Shown: positions 1 to 13,819 of the stretch, piece by piece
How positions within the stretch are numbered: the stretch's first letter is position 1
Layout: the number at the start of each line of letters is the position of its first letter
NCBI GenBank assembly: GCA_013372875.1
Contig: JABXIW010000318.1
Location: 1 to 15,448 of the forward strand
Direction: 5' to 3'
Length of the DNA: 15,448 nt
Source: Gammaproteobacteria bacterium
Lineage (GTDB): Bacteria > Pseudomonadota > Gammaproteobacteria > Enterobacterales > Kangiellaceae
The notes under the pieces: model-generated
Databases searched by the model: none
What the model saw: the letters and a program-made list of their open reading frames with translations, nothing else
What the model was told of the DNA's origin: nothing
Translations under genes and position numbers: made by a program

Positions 1-64
1 ACAATCTCTCACTAGTGAACTCCACAATCTCTCACTAGTGAACTCCACAATCTCTCACTAGTGA
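1..64. repeat. Tandem 23-bp direct repeats with palindromic core (array cut by window edge)
   Basis: A 23-bp unit is present about 2.8 times in perfect register (1-23, 24-46, 47-64). Each copy holds the 10-bp palindrome TCACTAGTGA. The copies abut with no spacers, so this is not a CRISPR array. The array begins at the first base of the window and probably continues to the left. It lies upstream of an HTH protein and a putative replication initiator, so iterons of an element origin or binding sites for an element regulator are possible. That role is inference. Confidence 0.9.
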
Positions 65-130
65 GTAACCATCTTCATTTCTAATCATAATTACACGCAG
101 TGACTTCTATTTTAAATTATTCTAAGCGCT

Positions 131-2587: not shown

Positions 2588-2833
2588 ATGATTAGCGAGA
2601 ATGATTTAAAAGCTATATTTGGGCGAGCCTTAAGAAAAGCTCGAAAAGATAAAGACTTAACTCAAGAGGAGTTAGCTGCTGAAGCTAATATGGATCGCTC
2701 TTATGTATCGTTGCTAGAAAGAGGCATAAACCAGCCGTCTTTCATCATAATCTATAAAATATGCGATGGTTTAGATCTCGATCTAAACGAACTAATGGTC
2801 TATGTGGATAAAGAGTTAAGCACAGCTCGTTGA
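2588..2833 (+). CDS. XRE-family helix-turn-helix regulator (Cro/C.protein-like)
   Basis: This 81-residue protein is nearly all one XRE domain: FGRALRKARKDKDLTQEELAAEANMDRSYVSLLERG, with the usual closing INQPS...I..ICDGLDLDL. Its size and its RSYVSLLERG helix resemble both phage-type repressors and the controller proteins of type II restriction systems. No Shine-Dalgarno sequence precedes the ATG, so a leaderless or weakly translated message, common for controller proteins, is possible. Its 3' end overlaps the convergent integrase gene by 34 bp. A perfect palindrome lies 35 bp upstream of the start. It most likely represses its own promoter and the zinc-ribbon gene. Control of the R-M genes is less likely, because the integrase separates them and no matching operator is seen there. 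Confidence 0.85.
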   Translation: MISENDLKAIFGRALRKARKDKDLTQEELAAEANMDRSYVSLLERGINQPSFIIIYKICDGLDLDLNELMVYVDKELSTAR

Positions 2834-4032
2834 GCTTCACTTAAGAATTTAAAGATATAGTCATTAATCGCTAACATAGGTTCTCTTAGGCTATCTACGC
2901 TATTCACAACGTAACCCATAGTCACATTTGCCTTTTCTTTATGATTCATTAGTTTTTTGACAGTTAACTCGGATATACCCGCGGCTCCTGCATAAGTAGC
3001 GAATGTGCGCCTCAAATCATGCGGAGTGAACTCAATACCAGAATCTTCGCGAACTTTACCTATTAACCGCCTCAGATCTACTACATTCTTGCGAGTATGT
3101 GGATTTTCAAAAATGTAGCCAAATTTAGCTATATCGCATCGCTTCCTCAATATTGATTCCAATAACGGTGTTAGAGGTAGTTTGTGCGTGCTACTATTCT
3201 TTGTATCGGAGATGCACATAGAGCATTCTGTAAAGCTAATATCGTCTACTTTTAGCCCTAATAACTCATTCCTTCGCAAGCCAGTCATAATACCTACTAT
3301 CAAGAAATCAGCTACCAGTTGCTCGTTATCAAAGTTACTATCCCTATATTCTAGTACAGTCCTAAACCACAGCGACAAATGCGATTGATTAATATAGCTA
3401 CTACGCCTTGATTCTTTATGCCATGCTTTAAGCTGCTTTAACTTATCAACTGGATTCGATGTAATATAAGGCTCCCCATCTGAGTTTTCATACTTCCCCA
3501 TAGCGAAATTAAGCAAAGACCTAAGCACCCTAAATGCTTTATTTGCACTCGATGGGTAACTTTCGCTAATTTCATTAAACTTTTGCAGAACTTCCCCCCT
3601 TTTAATTTCTATCAGAGGTTTTCCTTTCCAATCGTCAAAATACTTATTAAGAACGGTATGGTAGTTTGAAATAGTATTTGGCTTAAGAGAGGTAGCTTCT
3701 AAATATTCAGTAAATACTTGCTTAAGACTAATCAACCTTTGACGTGTATCCCTCTCTTTAGCTAACGGGTTTATACCCAAACTCATCAAGTTTAGCTTTT
3801 CAGCGGCTAACTTCTTAGCATTCTGAATTGTTAGCTCAGGGAATCTTCCTAGGGTTACTCTTTTTGACTCTCCATTAACCTTTTTTTGCACAAAAAAGCT
3901 CTTGGTGCCATTTGCAGTAACAGCCAGCTTTAGAAAGCCTGTATTAGCATCTTTATAGTACTCTCTACCCTTAGTTTTAGGAGCAGCAATGGACTCAATA
4001 TTTGATTTTGTGAAAGCTATTAAATTGCTCAT
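2800..4032 (-). CDS. int: Site-specific tyrosine recombinase (P4-type integrase)
   Basis: The protein is 410 residues, normal for P4-like integrases. An N-terminal arm-binding domain (DUF4102-like, residues about 1-95, with SFFVQKKVNGESKRVTLGRF) is followed by a SAM-like core-binding domain (about 100-185) and a catalytic domain. The catalytic set is complete: R253 in TGLRRNE, K278 in DTKNSS, H338 and R341 in HDLRR, H364 in LMNHK, and nucleophile Y374 in MGYV. AAGGTGG precedes the ATG. The gene should catalyse integration and excision of the element at a tRNA 3' end; the tRNA-Met fragment at 9029-9073 is the likely right attachment site. The gene lies more than 2.8 kb from any left end and 5 kb from the right end, which is unusual, since P4-type integrases normally sit next to the attachment site. 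Confidence 0.95.
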   Translation of the reverse strand: MSNLIAFTKSNIESIAAPKTKGREYYKDANTGFLKLAVTANGTKSFFVQKKVNGESKRVTLGRFPELTIQNAKKLAAEKLNLMSLGINPLAKERDTRQRLISLKQVFTEYLEATSLKPNTISNYHTVLNKYFDDWKGKPLIEIKRGEVLQKFNEISESYPSSANKAFRVLRSLLNFAMGKYENSDGEPYITSNPVDKLKQLKAWHKESRRSSYINQSHLSLWFRTVLEYRDSNFDNEQLVADFLIVGIMTGLRRNELLGLKVDDISFTECSMCISDTKNSSTHKLPLTPLLESILRKRCDIAKFGYIFENPHTRKNVVDLRRLIGKVREDSGIEFTPHDLRRTFATYAGAAGISELTVKKLMNHKEKANVTMGYVVNSVDSLREPMLAINDYIFKFLSEAQRAVLNSLST

Positions 4033-4230
4033 AATCCACCTTAAACTATGATTATTAAGCTAATTATCCAGCGAGAGACAAGCTTTTCAAGCAATTTAAA
4101 GTTGGCAATTTTGACCCTTCAACGCTAATCAATAGCTATCTATGATCTTCAATTTATTTCAATTTATAATTTTACATTTGTTGGTATGTATATTAGCGTA
4201 AGTGCAAATTATTATAAGAATTACTATTAA
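4033..4230. other. Divergent intergenic region with tandem TTCAATTTAT repeats
   Basis: This 198-bp AT-rich space separates the integrase from the first gene of the restriction cassette and should hold both promoters. A perfect 10-bp tandem repeat, TTCAATTTAT twice, lies at 4148-4167. The core TCAATTTAT recurs at 8999-9007 near the right attachment site, and a variant TCAATTTGT lies at 8915-8923. Integrase or excisionase arm sites are possible. I see no further gene and no RNA-like structure. Confidence 0.4.
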
Positions 4231-5316
4231 ATGTCACTACCACCAATACTTCAAAAATTTGCAAACAAAAACTGCAGAGATTACTTTGAAAATCAAGCAC
4301 CTAGCATATGCTCAGTAAGCTGCGCTCATTACAATGGATTTATTAATTTAAGCGATAAGTCTCATCTAGATAGAGTATTCATAGCGGAATCTGATAAAAG
4401 GGTAAAATCATTCATTTTCGAAGCTCTGTTTTTAAAATGTTTAAAAAATCAAGGGCTTATAAGTACAGGCTGGCTTTATATAGATTACTCAATAGGCAAC
4501 TATGCTTTTAAGTTAATCGATGAGCGTTCACCCATTTCATCAGTAGATTTAATAATAGAAGAACAGTTTAAAAAGCTAGGGTTTAGCGTAACCTACGTTA
4601 AATATGGAGCGAGCACCAATAACTTTAGCGCATCTACATGTCACGATGGCGTATATTCCGACTTTTTTGACTTTATGCAAAACACTTATAATGTCGGTGC
4701 TAAAGTCACTCCAAGTAATGCTAAAGCATCTAAACCCTCTAAAAGCACTGTTGGCAAGCTTTCTTGCTTTCTAACTCAAGAAGAATTAAGGACTATCGCC
4801 ATATCTAGACTCTTCATCAATGCATATTGCATTCCAATATTTGAATATCCCCCCATTGATATTGATGCATTTTTATTGATAGAAGAAGAGTTATTTATTG
4901 TCGAATTCAAGAGAAAGTACCCTGCTAAAGAAAAAGTTTTTGGCTGTGATAAACACATATATAGAATGGTAAATAGAATAAAGAAGAGTAATATATCTTT
5001 TCTTCATATCATTCTGACTACTCCTAATTGGGATAAGAACTATGATCAAATTGAGCTTTTGGAGCAAAAAAATGCATACATATTCAAAGAGTCTTTATGG
5101 TTAGCTATAACATTAAATCCTAGTAGCTTTGCTGGCCATCTACACACTCAAGGGGAAGATAGTGGGATGCAAAAGGGGAAGAGAACGCAATACCAAGTAG
5201 ATGTTGATGAATTTTCAATCATTGGCGAAGGGTACTGCTTTAATATAATGAAGCTTAACAACTCTAATGATATTCCTACATATAGCACCTTAGAAGACAA
5301 ACGAATTAAGACATAA
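4231..5316 (+). CDS. Unrecognised protein with PD-(D/E)xK nuclease-like motif, first gene of the R-M cassette
   Basis: I do not recognise this 361-residue protein as a family. Residues 207-229 read PPIDIDAFLLIEEEL then FIVEFKRK. This places D210/D212 twelve to fourteen residues before E225-x-K227 on a hydrophobic strand, the core pattern of PD-(D/E)xK nucleases. A strand-rich stretch follows (ISFLHIILTTP, 255-265). The N-terminal half (1-160) is probably a separate domain and contains several cysteines. A Lys/Ser-rich linker (161-176) joins the two. It is the first gene of a co-directional set with a Dcm-like methyltransferase and a MvaI-like endonuclease, with 66 bp before the methyltransferase ATG. 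It could be a second nuclease, a specificity or regulatory subunit, or an independent defence gene. The motif is visible; the activity is inference. Confidence 0.75.
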   Translation: MSLPPILQKFANKNCRDYFENQAPSICSVSCAHYNGFINLSDKSHLDRVFIAESDKRVKSFIFEALFLKCLKNQGLISTGWLYIDYSIGNYAFKLIDERSPISSVDLIIEEQFKKLGFSVTYVKYGASTNNFSASTCHDGVYSDFFDFMQNTYNVGAKVTPSNAKASKPSKSTVGKLSCFLTQEELRTIAISRLFINAYCIPIFEYPPIDIDAFLLIEEELFIVEFKRKYPAKEKVFGCDKHIYRMVNRIKKSNISFLHIILTTPNWDKNYDQIELLEQKNAYIFKESLWLAITLNPSSFAGHLHTQGEDSGMQKGKRTQYQVDVDEFSIIGEGYCFNIMKLNNSNDIPTYSTLEDKRIKT

Positions 5317-5332
5317 TAACGGTTGTACAAAA

Positions 5333-5369
5333 GGGACATATATGTGACCATTAGTCACATAATTATCCC
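5333..5369. promoter_or_regulatory. 37-bp inverted repeat upstream of the methyltransferase gene
   Basis: TATGTGAC (5341-5348) and GTCACATA (5354-5361) are perfect 8-bp arms around CATTA. The symmetry extends outward to GGGA (5333-5336) and TCCC (5366-5369), giving 13 matches in 16 per arm. It ends 14 bp before the ATG at 5383. It could be a DNA operator or, in mRNA, a hairpin near the ribosome site. M.EcoRII is known to repress its own gene by binding upstream of it, so autoregulation by this Dcm-like enzyme is a reasonable hypothesis. Confidence 0.6.
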
Positions 5370-5382
5370 TGTGATTGTGCGC

Positions 5383-6699
5383 ATGCATTATAAAGAAACT
5401 GAGTTGCTAACAGATCTTGAATTACTTGAAAAAGTATCATTTATTTACTCACAGCAGTATATCGCTGATATTACAAATCACCCTAGGGAGGTGATAAACA
5501 GGTGGCTAAAAGACAAACAGAAGTCCCCGAAAGATTCTTGGCTAACCTATAATGAAAGGTTAAAACTTGAGCAAGCACTCCCGAACCCTCAAGATTCTAA
5601 TGACTTCACATTTATTGATCTTTTCGCTGGGATTGGCGGTATTCGTAAAGGTTTTGAAGATCAGGGGGGTAAATGCGTATTTACAAGCGAATATGACAAA
5701 TATGCTGTAAAGACTTACTTAGCCAATTATCATTGCGATCATCCTATTCATGGTGACATTAGAGAGATTACTCAACCAAAGGGTATATCTAAATCTAAAG
5801 TGGACAAATACATAGACTCGAAAATTCCTAATCATGATGTTTTGCTAGCTGGTTTTCCATGTCAGCCATTCTCAATTGCTGGCGTTTCTAAGAAAAAGTC
5901 TCTGGGCAGAACACATGGATTTGAAGATGAGACACAAGGAACGCTTTTTTTTGATGTAGCAAGAATAATAAAAGCAAAACAGCCTCATGCTGTAATGTTA
6001 GAAAACGTCAAAAATCTGAAAAGCCATGATAAAGGCAGAACCTTTAAAGTAATAATGAATACTTTGAGTGAGTTAGGGTATGAAGTCGTAAATGCCGAAG
6101 TTCCTAAAGGTAAAACAGACCCAAAGGTTATTAATGGAAAGAACTTCGTCCCCCAAAATAGAGAGCGAATAGTTATAGTTGCCTTTAAAAAAGAAAGCTC
6201 ACTTGCACAGTCTATGAATCTTAAAGATATTTCTGACTTTTATCCTTCAACACCTCCAATGGTGGCGGATATTTTGGATGATAATAAACGCGTTGATAAA
6301 AAGTACACTCTTACACCAAAGCTTTGGCAATATTTAAAGAATTACGCTGATAAACACAAAAAAGCAGGAAATGGCTTTGGGTTTGGGCTTGTAACCAGCG
6401 AATCAGAACATACTCGGACTCTATCGGCTAGATATTATAAAGATGGCTCAGAAATATTAGTTTCTAGAGGTCCACGCAGCAAGCCAAGAAGACTAACACC
6501 AAAGGAGTGCGCAAGATTAATGGGGTTTACTAAAAAGGGAGAGGACCATTTCGTTATTCCTGTATCGGATACGCAAGCTTATAAGCAGTTTGGAAATAGC
6601 GTAGTTGTTCCTGTCTTCGCTTCAGTGGCCTCACTTATGAAACCGCTAATAATCAAAGCTAAAGAATTAAATAGTTCGAAAAGAAAGGCCGCAGCATAG
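5383..6699 (+). CDS. Dcm-like DNA (cytosine-5-)-methyltransferase, predicted CCWGG
   Basis: This enzyme transfers a methyl group from SAM to C5 of cytosine and protects host DNA from the neighbouring nuclease. All main motifs are present in order: [26 protein letters not shown] with the catalytic Cys, [26 protein letters not shown], and [17 protein letters not shown] ... [10 protein letters not shown]. Long stretches resemble E. coli Dcm as I recall it, including [25 protein letters not shown] and [11 protein letters not shown], so the target is probably CCWGG. The first ~70 residues form an extension like the one in Dcm. I prefer the ATG at 5383 (MHYKETELL, 438 residues); an in-frame TTG at 5323 would run through the inverted repeat. 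No vsr gene follows, unlike in many Dcm loci. Confidence 0.93.
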
Positions 6700-6716
6700 T
6701 AAAGCCTTGAAATTGA

Positions 6717-6757
6717 ATATGTATTCAGCGAAACTCAATGTATAGCTGAATACATAT
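6717..6757. promoter_or_regulatory. 13-bp stem inverted repeat directly before the endonuclease gene
   Basis: The arms 6717-6729 and 6745-6757 pair perfectly over 13 bp (core TATGTATTCAGC / GCTGAATACATA) around a 15-nt loop. A shorter competing hairpin, ATGTAT (6739-6744) with ATACAT (6750-6755), shares the right arm, so the two folds exclude each other. The stem ends 7 bases before the endonuclease ATG at 6765, and no Shine-Dalgarno sequence is visible between. There is no U-run, so it is not a normal terminator. An operator or a translational brake on the nuclease are both possible. Confidence 0.6.
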
Positions 6758-6764
6758 AATACAA

Positions 6765-8138
6765 ATGACAATAAAAGGGACTTACGATAGCCAAGCTTCG
6801 TTAGATTTAAATATAAGCACTCTATTGCAAATATATAGAGATCTAGGAGCTTCAAAAGTTTACGTTAAAAAGCTCGCTCCTAATGATAATAGCAAGAACC
6901 AACCTTACTTCGGTGCGCACTTGACCGAGCTGTCTTTTTTACCCACTGGTAATATAGAAGCATCTGCTACTAAATCAGCAAAAACAAGCAACAGAAAAAT
7001 AAAGTACCAAGTTGAGTTCCCTTTATCATGGGTTGATTGCGAAGGAACAACTTATCCAGCCCCTAAGTCCAAACTCATTTATTATCCCCAATACCCAGAA
7101 GTACGGTTTTCAGGTTTTCTTCTTGGCTCTAAAGTAGAGATGAGCGAATGGATGAACCCTCAACGAAGCGGAAGAGCCGAAGGAAGATGGCTTATCTTAG
7201 GAGTAACGAAAGAAAGGACTTACGGCTTTTTAGCCTTACCATATTCTCAAATTACGTCATATTTAGAGAGTACAGATTTAATTACGTTCACTAATATATT
7301 TTCACTACTACAGACCAATCATCTTGGCTCGGTTGATAATAAACAACTTCTTTTAGCTAAATTGAAAGAAATACATGATATGGGTTGGGTTCAAAGTCAA
7401 AGAAGAAATTCAGATATGAATATAATCCCTTATCAAGCTCAAAATGGTGGAGGATACACTCTTGAGTCATTATTGGAGATCTCGCCAAATGGGATAGCTG
7501 AGCCCGATTATTTAGGCTGGGAGATTAAGCAATACGGGGTAACAAAATTTCCATCTACTGGATCGAAGCCAACTACTTTGATGACACCTGAGCCAGATGG
7601 AGGGCAATATAAAACCGAAGGTGCATTAGCTTTTATGCAAAAGTACGGCTATCCACCCAAAAATGGTACTCCCGACAGATTAAACTTTAGTGGTAAGCAT
7701 TGCGTAAACAAGCTAAATACAACTACTCAACTTACTCTAGTTCTGGATGGTTATGACATTGATAAAAAGGAAATAGTAGATTCCGACGGAAACATATCCT
7801 TGTTGGATTCAAATGGAGACATTGCCGCGAGTTGGAGCTTTTCTAAAATAATGGAACACTGGAAAAAGAAGCACTCAAAAACAGCTTTCGTACCTGCATT
7901 GAAAAGGCTCCATAGAGGGGAATTCCAATACTTGTTTGGCGATACTGTAAAACTTGGCGAAGGTACTAGTTTCAAGATGCTATTAGATGGCTTAGCTTCA
8001 GGAGCCACGTATTACGATCCGGGCATTAATGTGAAAAACATATCGAAACGGCCTACTATAAAGAAAAGAAGTCAGTTTAGAATCAATCACTCTAACCTAT
8101 CAGCACTTTATCATTCTTTTAAAATAATACAGGTTTAA
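6765..8138 (+). CDS. MvaI/BcnI-family type II restriction endonuclease with N-terminal extension
   Basis: This is a 457-residue protein. Residues about 200-457 match the size and pattern of the MvaI/BcnI nucleases: GGGYTLESLLEISPNG, then AEPDYLGWEIKQYG. D248, E253 and K255 have the same spacing as the MvaI active site (D50, E55, K57, from memory). These enzymes are monomeric PD-(D/E)xK nucleases that cut at CCWGG (MvaI) or CCSGG (BcnI). The Dcm-like methyltransferase 65 bp upstream points to CCWGG. MvaI itself is about 246 residues, so residues 1-200 are an added domain that I cannot identify (FPLSWVDCEGT ... GRWLILGVTKERTYGFLALPY). The start is the ATG at 6765; the usual Shine-Dalgarno region is taken up by a hairpin. 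The reading frame is intact and the catalytic residues are present, so it is probably active. Confidence 0.88.
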   Translation: MTIKGTYDSQASLDLNISTLLQIYRDLGASKVYVKKLAPNDNSKNQPYFGAHLTELSFLPTGNIEASATKSAKTSNRKIKYQVEFPLSWVDCEGTTYPAPKSKLIYYPQYPEVRFSGFLLGSKVEMSEWMNPQRSGRAEGRWLILGVTKERTYGFLALPYSQITSYLESTDLITFTNIFSLLQTNHLGSVDNKQLLLAKLKEIHDMGWVQSQRRNSDMNIIPYQAQNGGGYTLESLLEISPNGIAEPDYLGWEIKQYGVTKFPSTGSKPTTLMTPEPDGGQYKTEGALAFMQKYGYPPKNGTPDRLNFSGKHCVNKLNTTTQLTLVLDGYDIDKKEIVDSDGNISLLDSNGDIAASWSFSKIMEHWKKKHSKTAFVPALKRLHRGEFQYLFGDTVKLGEGTSFKMLLDGLASGATYYDPGINVKNISKRPTIKKRSQFRINHSNLSALYHSFKIIQV

Positions 8139-8142
8139 ATTC

Positions 8143-8889
8143 ATGTTAGATTTCTTAACCTCAAATCCTGAGTGGGGAACAGTTGTTTTTGGTGCTTTTA
8201 CAGCAATAGCAGGGTATTGGTTCAAATCATTTCGCTCAAAAAAGAAAAACTTAAGAAAAGCTTTATTTTTGCTTATTGAAATGTGGCATTATTTGTACGC
8301 TATAAGTGCATTTCATCCAAATATGTTCTCAAAAAAGATAATTGCGAGCTTAAAGGCAAACTTTCCAAAACTAGAACTACCGGGAGATGACATAGCTCAA
8401 CATGAGCAATTATTAGAGCTTTATTTAAAACAATATATCGCCCCGATAACTAAAGATATGGCCAACAAGGGTATAACGCCTGTCAGAAACCCCCTTACAG
8501 ATGCGATAAATGAGATAGCTTCAGATTATCCTTTTATTTCTTATAAACTAAATTCAGGAATTTCAACAGATGATCTTGTGCAGTCGTTAAACAGTATTTG
8601 CGGGAATCTAGATTCAGAATCAATAGATCATAACCTTATTACTGAACAAGTTAGCGATCATATATACAAAGATACCGCCAAGTTGCTTGAAAAAAACATT
8701 CTTTCTTTATCTTTAAAAATTGGCATCGAGTCATGGATTAAGGCTAAATACTTTATACGTAAAAGAAAGAACAAGTTGAAGTTAGATGAGAAAAGTATTC
8801 AAGAGGATATACTTCCCTTTATAAAAATGGGACTTCCCAATGAAAAATCTGAAAATAACAATCAAGAAGAAGCAGAGTCTGGCAATTAG
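8143..8889 (+). CDS. Membrane-anchored protein of unknown function, last gene of the R-M cassette
   Basis: This is a 248-residue protein starting 4 bp after the endonuclease stop codon, so it is co-transcribed with the nuclease. Residues about 8-27 (NPEWGTVVFGAFTAIAGYWF) form one transmembrane segment followed by a basic stretch (KSFRSKKKNLRK). This predicts a single membrane anchor with a cytoplasmic remainder. The rest is helical and charged without a motif I recognise, and the C-terminus is Glu/Asn-rich. CAGG lies at a usable distance before the ATG. Its tight coupling to the endonuclease suggests a role in the same defence system or a cargo gene acquired with it. I do not assign a function. 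Confidence 0.78.
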   Translation: MLDFLTSNPEWGTVVFGAFTAIAGYWFKSFRSKKKNLRKALFLLIEMWHYLYAISAFHPNMFSKKIIASLKANFPKLELPGDDIAQHEQLLELYLKQYIAPITKDMANKGITPVRNPLTDAINEIASDYPFISYKLNSGISTDDLVQSLNSICGNLDSESIDHNLITEQVSDHIYKDTAKLLEKNILSLSLKIGIESWIKAKYFIRKRKNKLKLDEKSIQEDILPFIKMGLPNEKSENNNQEEAESGN

Positions 8890-8907
8890 TGCCACCTCAG
8901 TGCCACC
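8888..8907. repeat. Direct repeat AGTGCCACC x2, 11 bp apart
   Basis: AGTGCCACC occurs at 8888-8896 and 8899-8907, in phase at about one helical turn. It covers the stop codon of the last element gene and lies about 120 bp inside the presumed attachment site. It could be a protein-binding site, for example an arm site of the integrase. It is short, so chance is possible. Confidence 0.4.
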
Positions 8908-9028
8908 CTTTAAGTCAATTTGTATGTGTTTTGGTCAACATCCGTCCATAAGAGAACTTTTTTAGCTATAAATGCCTATCAAACTCTTGCCATTTAAATC
9001 AATTTATATAAAATACCCAGCCTCAGAA

Positions 9029-9073
9029 TTCATAATGCTGGGGTCGGTGGTTCAAGTCCACCCATAGCTACCA
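9029..9073 (+). repeat. Attachment site: 3' fragment of tRNA-Met(CAT)
   Basis: The segment reads as the 3' part of a tRNA. It has the anticodon loop TTCATAA with anticodon CAT (9031-9033), the 3' anticodon stem TGCTG, a variable loop GGGTC, a T-arm GGTGG-TTCAAGT-CCACC, the acceptor strand CATAGCT, A, and encoded CCA (9071-9073). No D-arm or 5' acceptor strand precedes it; the upstream bases are AT-rich element DNA. This is the classic right-end duplication left when an element integrates into a tRNA 3' end. The identity block could begin a few bases before 9029. The intact tRNA-Met is expected at the left end, outside the window. Confidence 0.85.
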
Positions 9074-9085
9074 TATTTTTAATGG

Positions 9086-9114
9086 TTCCCTTATCGTAAA
9101 ACTTAGGGTATCAT
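9086..9114 (+). promoter_or_regulatory. Candidate sigma-70 promoter of tRNA-Ser
   Basis: TTCCCT (9086-9091) and TATCAT (9109-9114) are 17 bp apart. The -10 box matches the consensus at 5 of 6 positions; the -35 box is weak. Transcription would start just before the tRNA-Ser 5' end. It matters because the element has cut this tRNA off from the tRNA-Met in front of it. Confidence 0.4.
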
Positions 9115-9125
9115 TTCGCTTCTTC

Positions 9126-9216
9126 GGAGAGGTGACAGAGCGGCCGAATGTACCGGTCTTGAAAACCGGCGTGGGTTAATAGCCCACCGTGGGTTCAAAT
9201 CCCACCCTCTCCGCCA
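9126..9216 (+). tRNA. tRNA-Ser (anticodon TGA)
   Basis: This is a complete class II tRNA of 91 nt with encoded CCA. The acceptor GGAGAGG (9126-9132) pairs with CCTCTCC (9206-9212). The anticodon stem CCGGT/ACCGG encloses the loop CTTGAAA with anticodon TGA, which reads UCA. The long variable arm (CGTGGGTTAATAGCCCACC) is typical of tRNA-Ser, and the T-arm contains GTTCAAAT. It begins 52 bp after the tRNA-Met fragment, which suggests the two formed a tRNA cluster before the element inserted. Confidence 0.97.
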
Positions 9217-12918: not shown

Positions 12919-12943
12919 AAAAGGCGCTTTAAGCGCCTTTTTT
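12919..12943 (+). terminator. Intrinsic terminator of fabV
   Basis: AAGGCGCTT and AAGCGCCTT (12921-12939) form a GC-rich stem with a very short loop, preceded by A and followed by a T run. It begins about 20 bp after the fabV stop codon and separates fabV from the small-RNA region downstream. Confidence 0.9.
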
Positions 12944-13029
12944 ATCTTCCCAGCTAAGCGTTTGAATTCTTTACATTTTTTGTACTTTAGTTCCATAAAG
13001 CATCATTAATAAAAATAATACTCTTTAAT

Positions 13030-13042
13030 TATCAATAGGTTA
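13030..13042 (+). promoter_or_regulatory. Perfect IHF consensus site upstream of the sigma-54 promoter
   Basis: TATCAATAGGTTA matches the IHF consensus WATCAANNNNTTR at every defined position. It is centred about 40 bp before the expected start of transcription. IHF bends DNA to bring distant activators to sigma-54 promoters, so the combination is meaningful, although it sits closer to the -24 box than usual. Confidence 0.5.
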
Positions 13043-13049
13043 CACAAAC

Positions 13050-13065
13050 TGGCACGCTTTATGCT
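13050..13065 (+). promoter_or_regulatory. Sigma-54 (RpoN) -24/-12 promoter
   Basis: TGGCACGCTTTATGCT fits the consensus TGGCACG-N4-TTGCW, with GG and GC exactly 10 bases apart and only one base of the conserved set differing. Transcription is expected to start near 13076. No coding gene follows on this strand; a structured segment with a terminator does. Confidence 0.72.
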
Positions 13066-13075
13066 TATATAAATT

Positions 13076-13189
13076 CGTGAGCACAAGCATGTGCTGACTA
13101 TCCCCGGTTAATGGAGTACAACTACCCCGTACAAAATTAACCAATCAATGCGCAAGCCATTTGCCCATCCAAACGGATGGGCTTTTTTT
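13076..13189 (+). ncRNA. Predicted sigma-54-dependent small RNA of about 114 nt
   Basis: The RNA is bounded by the sigma-54 promoter and a strong terminator. Hairpin 1 is AGCACA-AGCA-TGTGCT (13080-13095). Hairpin 2 pairs GGTTAAT (13106-13112) with ATTAACC (13136-13142) and has an inner GTAC/GTAC stem with a C-rich loop AACTACCCC (13120-13128). Hairpin 3 is the terminator. A related C-rich stretch, ACTATCCCC, lies unpaired between hairpins 1 and 2. Exposed C-rich segments often pair with Shine-Dalgarno regions of target mRNAs. No convincing reading frame exists: the only ORF is nine codons (from 13111), lies in the hairpin and has no ribosome site. I do not recognise the family; it does not look like Qrr as I know it. 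Confidence 0.62.
13163..13189 (+). terminator. Intrinsic terminator of the predicted small RNA
   Basis: GCCCATCC and GGATGGGC form a perfect 8-bp stem with the tetraloop AAAC, directly followed by seven T. The orientation ends plus-strand transcripts. With fabV already terminated at 12919-12943, a second terminator here implies a separate transcript between the two. Confidence 0.93.
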
Positions 13190-13225
13190 GGACTGTAATA
13201 TAAGTAAATAAATGATGCTATTTGG

Positions 13226-13819
13226 CTAGCCTTTAAGCCAATGCAGCATTTTATACAAAATCGTTTGCCGCAAATTCAGATCGGATATTTCCAGAATGGC
13301 TTGTTTTTGCTTTTCTTGGATTGGCAAAAACTCGGACAAGCGCTCCATAACAAAGCCCAGTTGGTTCCATTTATCGGGGATATCGAGAATATCCACTTGT
13401 GGATGCTGCGATAAGTCTTTTAATAGATTTCTTAATTCGTCTTCGCCGTCAGGCAATATTTTTTCTGGCAATGGCTCTAACCAAGAAACATTGGCTGTTA
13501 ACAACTGATTAGGCATGGTTTCTAGATTGTTAATCTGGAAACGTTGTGTGCCTTGGCAAACGATATTTAAGATCCCGGAGTCATTTTGTGAAAAATCGAT
13601 AATTTCCACATAAGTACCAATAGTAAAAGGCTTAGCTGGCAGACCTACTTCAAAGCCTTTTTTAATCAAACAAACACCAAAGCCTTGCTGTTTAGCTAAT
13701 TGGCTTGAGACCATATCCAGATAGCGCTGCTCGAAAATTTGCAATCGTAGCAAGCTATCTGGAAATACCACTCGGCCGAGTGGAAAGATTGGAATTAAGC
13801 TATTGCTGGTAAAATCCAT
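13226..13819 (-). CDS. LON substrate-binding domain protein
   Basis: This 197-residue protein corresponds to the N-terminal domain of the Lon protease without the ATPase or protease parts. The N-terminus IPIFPLGRVVFPDSLLRLQIFEQRYLDMV is diagnostic, and GFGVCLIKKG and VEIIDFSQNDSGILNIVCQG continue the domain. The C-terminal ~70 residues are helical. The full length is normal for these stand-alone proteins. The ATG immediately follows the yadH stop codon (TAAATG), so it is the last gene of the yadG-yadH operon and probably translationally coupled. The domain binds unfolded or tagged substrates in Lon, but the role of the single-domain form is not established. It is cytoplasmic, with no signal peptide. 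Confidence 0.92.
   Translation of the reverse strand: MDFTSNSLIPIFPLGRVVFPDSLLRLQIFEQRYLDMVSSQLAKQQGFGVCLIKKGFEVGLPAKPFTIGTYVEIIDFSQNDSGILNIVCQGTQRFQINNLETMPNQLLTANVSWLEPLPEKILPDGEDELRNLLKDLSQHPQVDILDIPDKWNQLGFVMERLSEFLPIQEKQKQAILEISDLNLRQTILYKMLHWLKG

Follow-up and report, generated by a model that had tools for sequence, protein, structure and literature searches.

Introduction

Qrr, GlmY and CrcZ are small RNAs (sRNAs) whose transcription depends on sigma-54. In the available part of Haft et al. (2006; PMC1569441), a 17-nt motif with the 3' end TTTACA is described upstream of proteobacterial PEP-CTERM genes, followed by a spacer averaging 62.8 nt (32-92) and then a sigma-54 motif; phylogenetic profiling assigned it to the response regulator PrsR with its kinase PrsK. 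According to the accessible portion of an Aquincola study, such a gene depends on rpoN. Excerpts of two further papers report that Caulobacter NtrC, which has no GAFTGA, works at sigma-70 promoters (PMC12421884) and that Dv_sRNA2 of Desulfovibrio vulgaris is controlled by DVU0679 (PMC3333781).

Here we analyse an sRNA locus in a stretch of 15,448 nt (the window), which a sequence-only reading had interpreted as a separate, possibly undescribed sigma-54 sRNA controlled by an enhancer-binding protein. That proposal was supported: the RNA, its transcription being inferred, was found in each of the group's 20 genomes, no Rfam family matches it at cutoff, and a likely activator, PrsR, can be added. 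A conserved sRNA gene, of the sigma-54 type in the window's clade, is almost certainly real. As a whole, the locus is probably explained as a trans-acting sRNA gene driven by PrsK-PrsR and sigma-54.

Results

The sRNA unit and its promoter

The LON-domain protein of the window is 56-76% identical to its counterparts in 14 Kangiella or Kangiellaceae records and at most 42% identical to those of the remaining 66 loci found. Judged by sequence, the source is Kangiella, a marine bacterium. As had been read before, the sRNA unit is self-contained between the fabV terminator and the convergent LON-domain gene (Table 1), and no ORF of at least 80 aa in the window's ORF list overlaps it. The invariant block contains an ATG with a short frame behind it (ATGCGCAAGCC); we rejected the idea that it encodes a small peptide, as by eye there was neither a Shine-Dalgarno sequence nor a downstream frame common to relatives.

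Table 1. Features of the sRNA unit and its neighbours (window positions)
Feature	Position	Strand	Remarks
fabV terminator	12919-12941		upstream of sRNA unit
Predicted PrsR box CGTTTGAATTCTTTACA, 17 nt, Haft motif 1 type	12959-12975	+	74 nt before the -24/-12 promoter
IHF consensus site TATCAATAGGTTA	13030-13042	+	perfect match
Sigma-54 promoter TGGCACGCTTTATGCT, -24 GG / -12 GC	13050-13065	+	exact consensus match
Small RNA, about 114 nt	13076-13189	+	start inferred from promoter spacing, end from T run
Hairpin 1, GAGCAC...GTGCTG	13077-13098	+	fold; two pairs changed on both sides
C-rich segment A ACTATCCCC	13097-13105	+	mostly single-stranded (sequence, fold)
Hairpin 2, C-rich segment B in loop	13106-13142	+	fold
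C-rich segment B ACTACCCC	13121-13128	+	loop 13120-13128; complementary to GGGGTAGT
3' block TCAATGCGCAAGCCATTTGCCCA	13145-13167	+	nearly invariant in genus, partly single-stranded
Intrinsic terminator	13163-13189	+	8 pairs, then 7 T
LON-domain gene	13226-13819	-	convergent with sRNA

The promoter, described earlier as near-consensus, matched TGGCACGN5TGCT without a mismatch. It was the sole match in the window in a scan that allowed two mismatches, at which 2.3 chance matches are expected; by our own arithmetic, about 0.007 exact 11-base matches would be expected by chance. The IHF site ahead of it is, as claimed, a perfect WATCAANNNNTTR. Such matches are frequent (4 in the window vs 1.8 expected, with 31 of 200 shuffles reaching 4), and this one is meaningful only because its position is conserved: an IHF-like site starts exactly 20 nt before the TGG in all 13 sigma-54-type loci, with no mismatch in six and one mismatch in seven.

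Within about 114 nt we located all of the structural parts named in the sequence-only reading: the terminator, both hairpins and both C-rich segments. For the 115 nt at 13076-13190 the predicted folding energy is -38.1 kcal/mol (z-score -5.06; equalled by 0 of 200 shuffles), a value to which the terminator contributes. With a -24/-12 promoter, an intrinsic terminator and no ORF, the gene shows the sequence features of the sigma-54 sRNA class. No Rfam family matched it at cutoff, the window's only such match being a tRNA; two sub-threshold matches over the sRNA scored 14.6 and 13.4 bits against cutoffs of 95 and 49.5. Searching the open-licence literature by title, we found no report of this sRNA among the papers listed on Kangiella or on PrsR/PrsK with sRNAs, and it is apparently undescribed so far.

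Lying between two convergent genes, the RNA could also be read not as an independent gene but as part of a neighbour, fabV or the LON gene, whose 3' UTR or terminator region it would be. We regard this as highly improbable, given that fabV ends at its own terminator upstream, that in three loci (L006-L008) the RNA lies the other way round with respect to the LON gene, with promoter and RNA intact, and that the sRNA has its own conserved promoter.

Elsewhere in the window, positions 2803-9216 are a probable integrated element or genomic island with a tyrosine integrase, a Cro/C1-type regulator, a C5 cytosine methylase (5323-6696) and an MvaI/BcnI-type restriction enzyme (6765-8135). It adjoins a tRNA-Ser(TGA) gene (9126-9216), and no clear direct repeat of the tRNA end was seen. 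At the contig's very edge (1-69) there are three tandem, iteron-like copies of a 23-nt repeat, ACAATCTCTCACTAGTGAACTCC, about 410 nt ahead of a 330-aa ORF without a Pfam match. A single-protein locus search of genome contigs, an alignment search of viral contigs and a plasmid search with the region gave no match.

Conservation of the sRNA in Kangiella

The sRNA was present in all 14 Kangiella loci fetched beside the LON gene. The genomes of these LON-adjacent records (G001-G014) and further relatives (G015-G020) form the group studied here. When 198 genomes were searched with the 3'-block pattern, each of the 20 Kangiella-group genomes gave one match with no mismatch, and the sRNA is single-copy in every one of them. 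Two-mismatch matches in G109, G185 and G195 were discarded as homologues, since their surrounding sequence held no such promoter.

A covariance-model search in relatives, which the sequence-only reading had put forward as a check, recovered the same 20 genomes at E <=1.3e-8. The model was built from the window and the 12 copies of genomes with rpoN (a 13-row alignment), and 394 genomes were scored. Eight copies from genomes without detectable rpoN, all outside the model alignment, were still found at E 1.0e-9 to 1.3e-8. In nine further genomes matches lay at E 1.7e-4 to 9.4e-3, and G002, G011 and G012 each gave a second, weak match; the filters used were of a stricter kind, with which weak matches are lost. 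No convincing homologue was found in the 374 other genomes.

Across the 13 aligned rows, 87.8% of the pair cells of the helices are preserved and nine pairs are changed on both sides, compared with 26-40% and 0-3 pairs in slid-partner controls, although the tested structure is the window's own fold, and the window is one of the rows, which favours the true over the slid versions. Two of the changed pairs lie in the outer and three in the inner stem of hairpin 2, and the five clearest two-sided changes are each seen in four to six sequences. Against 500 shuffles, three of five covariation measures were never reached, the number of pairs changed on both sides was reached by 11, and the number of pair types by all 500. 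RNAalifold, run on the first 15 sequences, returned only nine pairs, those of the terminator and one tiny stem, because the rpoN-less clade has a different 5' half.

TATCCCC of segment A occurs in 11 of the 13 rows of alignment A3 (it is shortened in L004 and lost in L005). A point that goes beyond the sequence-only reading is that ACTACCCC of segment B is not shared throughout the genus. Of the long stretches, only the 3' block is invariant genus-wide; its part TCAATGCGCAAGCCA (13145-13159) is identical in 20 of 20 genomes and in the window, and is the strongest unexplained constraint in the sRNA. We found no partner for it: the best of its complements occurs nine times at gene starts of G019 against 3.7 expected (P 0.013, uncorrected).

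A predicted PrsR box upstream of the promoter

A 17-nt box ending in TTTACA was found in 21 of 21 loci. Its distance to the promoter is 73-74 nt in all 13 sigma-54-type loci, window included. The box was compared with Haft motif 1 in length and 3' end. PrsK scored above cutoff in 19 of the 20 genomes (it is missing in G014), and in the same 19 a PrsR sequence was read beside it. Two of these PrsR proteins were scored against TIGR02915 (cutoff 502.6) and reached 691 bits (G019) and 608 bits (G013). Exosortase (PF09721) was above cutoff in none of the 20 genomes, with weak sub-threshold matches in 12. GAFTGA, the sigma-54 contact loop, is present in PrsR of all 12 genomes with rpoN, and among the strong activator matches of G006 PrsR alone carries it. 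From these sequence features, PrsR is very probably the activator of the sRNA.

We also considered that the sRNA is a genuine sigma-54 gene whose TTTACA box serves another enhancer-binding protein of the VpsR- or NtrC-like kind (these and PilR-like being labels assigned in this analysis). Further PF00158 activators do occur in the 14 genomes searched for them (G001-G014), an NtrC-like protein has its own intergenic -24/-12 promoters in G019 and a GAFTGA loop in G002, and TGTCAN6TTTACA is also found elsewhere in the genomes. However, the VpsR-like proteins read GAFTNA or a degenerate motif in the loci examined, and PilR-like proteins had no motif where read. NtrC-like proteins were seen in G001-G005, G011 and G019 but were not among the strong matches of G006-G008, which have the sigma-54 promoter. 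In addition, the box agrees with the PrsR motif in length, 3' end and spacing, as far as the available part of the publication describes it (PMC1569441). These proteins are poorer candidates than PrsR, and control by one of them is unlikely.

PrsK is about 484-502 aa long in the window-type genomes (L189-L194: G004, G002, G001, G019, G005, G003) vs 670-690 aa in other clades. The window-type protein matches only the later part of TIGR02916, and its N-terminal sensor part seems to have been lost.

We then asked how exclusive the box and promoter are. The combined pattern TTTACA-55..85-TGGCAN7TGC gave 31 matches in 14 of the 20 genomes, and its reversed control gave two. Twelve of the 31 are the sRNA promoter, one for each genome with rpoN (12/12); judged by the printed letters, none of the other 19 recurs. 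A strict sigma-54 pattern had 13 matches in the 2.0 Mb of G019, three of them intergenic: the sRNA promoter and two at an NtrC-like kinase/regulator locus. A weight-matrix scan also placed the sRNA promoter first (37.0 vs 22.8), in a test that is partly circular because the matrix includes the sRNA site.

The box by itself is more widespread. TGTCAN6TTTACA had 112 matches in the 20 genomes vs 32 for the reversed pattern, and about 12 of these are the sRNA's own box, so the sRNA need not be the sole PrsR target. Four K. koreensis-type genomes keep an array of three such boxes within about 95 bp (G007:C32:46310-46403, G008:C1:837688-837781, G018:C1:2356403-2356496 and G020:C1:2180559-2180652). 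These arrays, absent from the box-plus-sigma-54-promoter matches, are possibly further PrsR targets. The second sigma-54 locus of G019 (C1, 1956392-1959935) encodes a kinase and the NtrC-like regulator, and one of its two intergenic -24/-12 promoters precedes a 216-aa protein of unknown kind.

Promoter change in genomes without rpoN

We found rpoN (PF04552) in 12 of the 20 genomes. The -24/-12 promoter is present in all 12 and in none of the eight without detectable rpoN. The absence of rpoN from G014 is weak evidence because this is a 1.4-Mb single-cell assembly, and several other rpoN-less genomes are drafts or MAGs. The conservation in relatives that the sequence-only reading had called for was thus seen for the RNA (20/20) and, where rpoN is present, for the -24/-12 elements (12/12), but in the rpoN-less genomes these elements are absent (0/8) and the sRNA has a different 5' half.

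All eight rpoN-less loci retain the sRNA and the upstream box, each as TGTCAN6TTTACA, with no -24/-12 motif after the spacer. At the aligned positions of the -24 GG and -12 GC there is instead an AT-rich block (AGTTAATCTAT and similar), which might hold a sigma-70 -10 element, albeit with a poor match to consensus. On this comparison the sigma-54 promoter is gone in the rpoN-less clade. PrsR changes in parallel: GAFTGA is found in 0 of the 7 rpoN-less genomes with a PrsR, and the DNA-binding end is retained in the sequences examined.

In a PrsK tree (19 genomes, midpoint root) the seven rpoN-less rows lie on one side of a fully supported branch. As the rpoN-less genomes group together, the concordance between promoter and rpoN counts as one evolutionary event, not eight. 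The alignments would fit a hand-over in which another sigma factor took the place of sigma-54 and PrsR stayed on as regulator; we give this even chances, as the replaced promoter and the lost GAFTGA are seen in the sequences and continued regulation by PrsR is presumed.

S8 peptidases as a target lead

Target prediction with the C-rich segments, also suggested in the sequence-only reading, revealed no general excess and yielded one clade-limited lead. We screened segments A and B against the 1,865 gene starts of G019. Pairings of -12 or lower numbered 65 at starts vs 114 in mid-gene windows for A, and 45 vs 62 for B (counts alone were used, mid-gene mean energies being spoiled by non-pairing windows), and shuffled segments paired with gene starts equally well. 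A general anti-Shine-Dalgarno action was rejected: signal-peptide genes paired no better (rank test, P 0.88 and 0.71), with 10 and 8 of them in the top 60 where shuffled segments averaged 5.7 and 5.9 (maximum 11).

For segment B, the four top-ranked starts of G019 included both close paralogues of S8 (subtilisin-like) peptidases, a ranking that preceded any inspection of homologues. GGGGTAGT is the exact complement of ACTACCCC; in an 8-mer test in G019 it was observed four times against 0.73 expected, with a P of 0.0066 that is not significant after 110 tests. In one S8 paralogue group it is present in 7 of 7 leaders (6 of 6 excluding G019), 30-38 nt before the start and separate from the AGGAG site. 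Of the four genes from genomes with rpoN in the other group, three carry it and the fourth has GGGGTAGG; it occurs in 0 of 3 rpoN-less homologues. Fetched afterwards, the homologues check the lead independently, apart from their shared descent.

Paired with the sRNA of their own genome, 9 of 9 tested genes from six window-type genomes gave energies between -15.0 and -19.5 kcal/mol; per gene, 0-2 of 150 shuffles did as well. G005, where segment A is lost, pairs via B, and G002 and G003, where B is damaged, pair via A. Pairing was no better than in shuffles for two genes of G011, two of the K. koreensis type and three rpoN-less genes; the G011 leaders carry GGGGTAGT or GGGGTAGG though the RNA of that genome has no ACTACCCC. 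In total 16 of 29 S8 leaders were tested, those left out including two distant G002/G003 homologues that lack GGGGTAGT and a G004 gene that had no locus. We tentatively suggest, from predicted pairing, that the sRNA may repress secreted S8 peptidases in the window-type clade only.

A comparably tentative proposal is that the sRNA acts mainly through TCAATGCGCAAGCCA, by pairing or protein binding, and that C-rich pairing with S8 leaders is secondary or coincidental. The block is the sole long invariant stretch in a genus where the C-rich parts vary, and S8 pairing is confined to the window-type clade among the genes tested. Conversely, no complement of the block is significantly enriched among the gene starts of G019, and the rank of both close S8 genes within the top four of 1,865 starts speaks for segment B.

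Two other ideas were dropped. Direct control of S8 genes by PrsR was rejected after the box was found upstream of 1 of 18 S8 genes scanned, which we took as chance. As possible targets, pilA and pilB of G019 are both preceded by GGGGATAG (the complement of CTATCCCC), but with the spacing tried the pilA arrangement was seen in 1 of the 20 genomes. By pattern match, an Hfq-like protein is encoded in G019.

Discussion

In the mechanism that we propose, the PrsK-PrsR two-component system would activate a trans-acting sRNA gene. PrsR would bind the 17-nt box about 100-117 nt upstream of the sRNA start and, with the DNA bent by IHF, drive sigma-54 polymerase into the open complex at the -24/-12 promoter. 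The predicted transcript would end at the intrinsic terminator and offer its C-rich single-stranded segments to mRNA leaders. In window-type Kangiella it may pair with GGGGTAGT at or upstream of the ribosome sites of S8 genes and repress them. In the rpoN-less clade the promoter has been altered in place to a non-sigma-54 type, and PrsR has lost its sigma-54 contact loop, with its DNA-binding end retained. The rpoN, prsR and S8 genes considered here were read in genomes related to that of the window.

A broader interpretation, to which we give slightly less than even chances, is that a PrsK-PrsR/sigma-54 circuit serving PEP-CTERM surface proteins elsewhere was stripped down, in this genus with no detectable exosortase, to one recurrent client, the sRNA. 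After one lineage lost rpoN, promoter and activator would have been converted on the spot to control of the sigma-70 style, the box and the RNA being retained. If so, these genomes would form a natural series that shows one gene before and after a change of sigma factor, and the paired clades with and without rpoN would make the hand-over of a sigma-54 promoter testable with activator gene and box retained. PrsK-PrsR, a surface-coat control system known for PEP-CTERM genes, would gain an RNA output and a role in bacteria without detected exosortase. Should the peptidase link hold, the sRNA would tie a two-component kinase to extracellular proteolysis.

The locus resembles Qrr, GlmY and CrcZ in its series of two-component system, enhancer-binding protein, sigma-54 and sRNA with an intrinsic terminator. 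It differs from them in sequence, in the proposed activator and in matching no Rfam family at cutoff. It also resembles the PrsR/sigma-54 unit, as given in the accessible text of Haft et al. (2006; PMC1569441), in its 17-nt box ending in TTTACA, a spacer within 32-92 nt, the -24/-12 motif and the presence of PrsK and PrsR, here encoded in related genomes. Unlike in that unit, a non-coding RNA and not a PEP-CTERM gene lies downstream, in a group where 0 of 20 genomes have an exosortase above cutoff. Caulobacter NtrC, as described in the excerpt available (PMC12421884), offers a precedent for what is proposed to have become of PrsR in the rpoN-less genomes, with the difference that Caulobacter still has sigma-54 whereas rpoN was not found in this Kangiella clade. 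Dv_sRNA2 lies downstream of its regulator gene, and its regulator, organism and RNA differ from those of the Kangiella sRNA; yet, in the part of that study at hand (PMC3333781), DVU0679 is likewise a response regulator whose located target is a small RNA.
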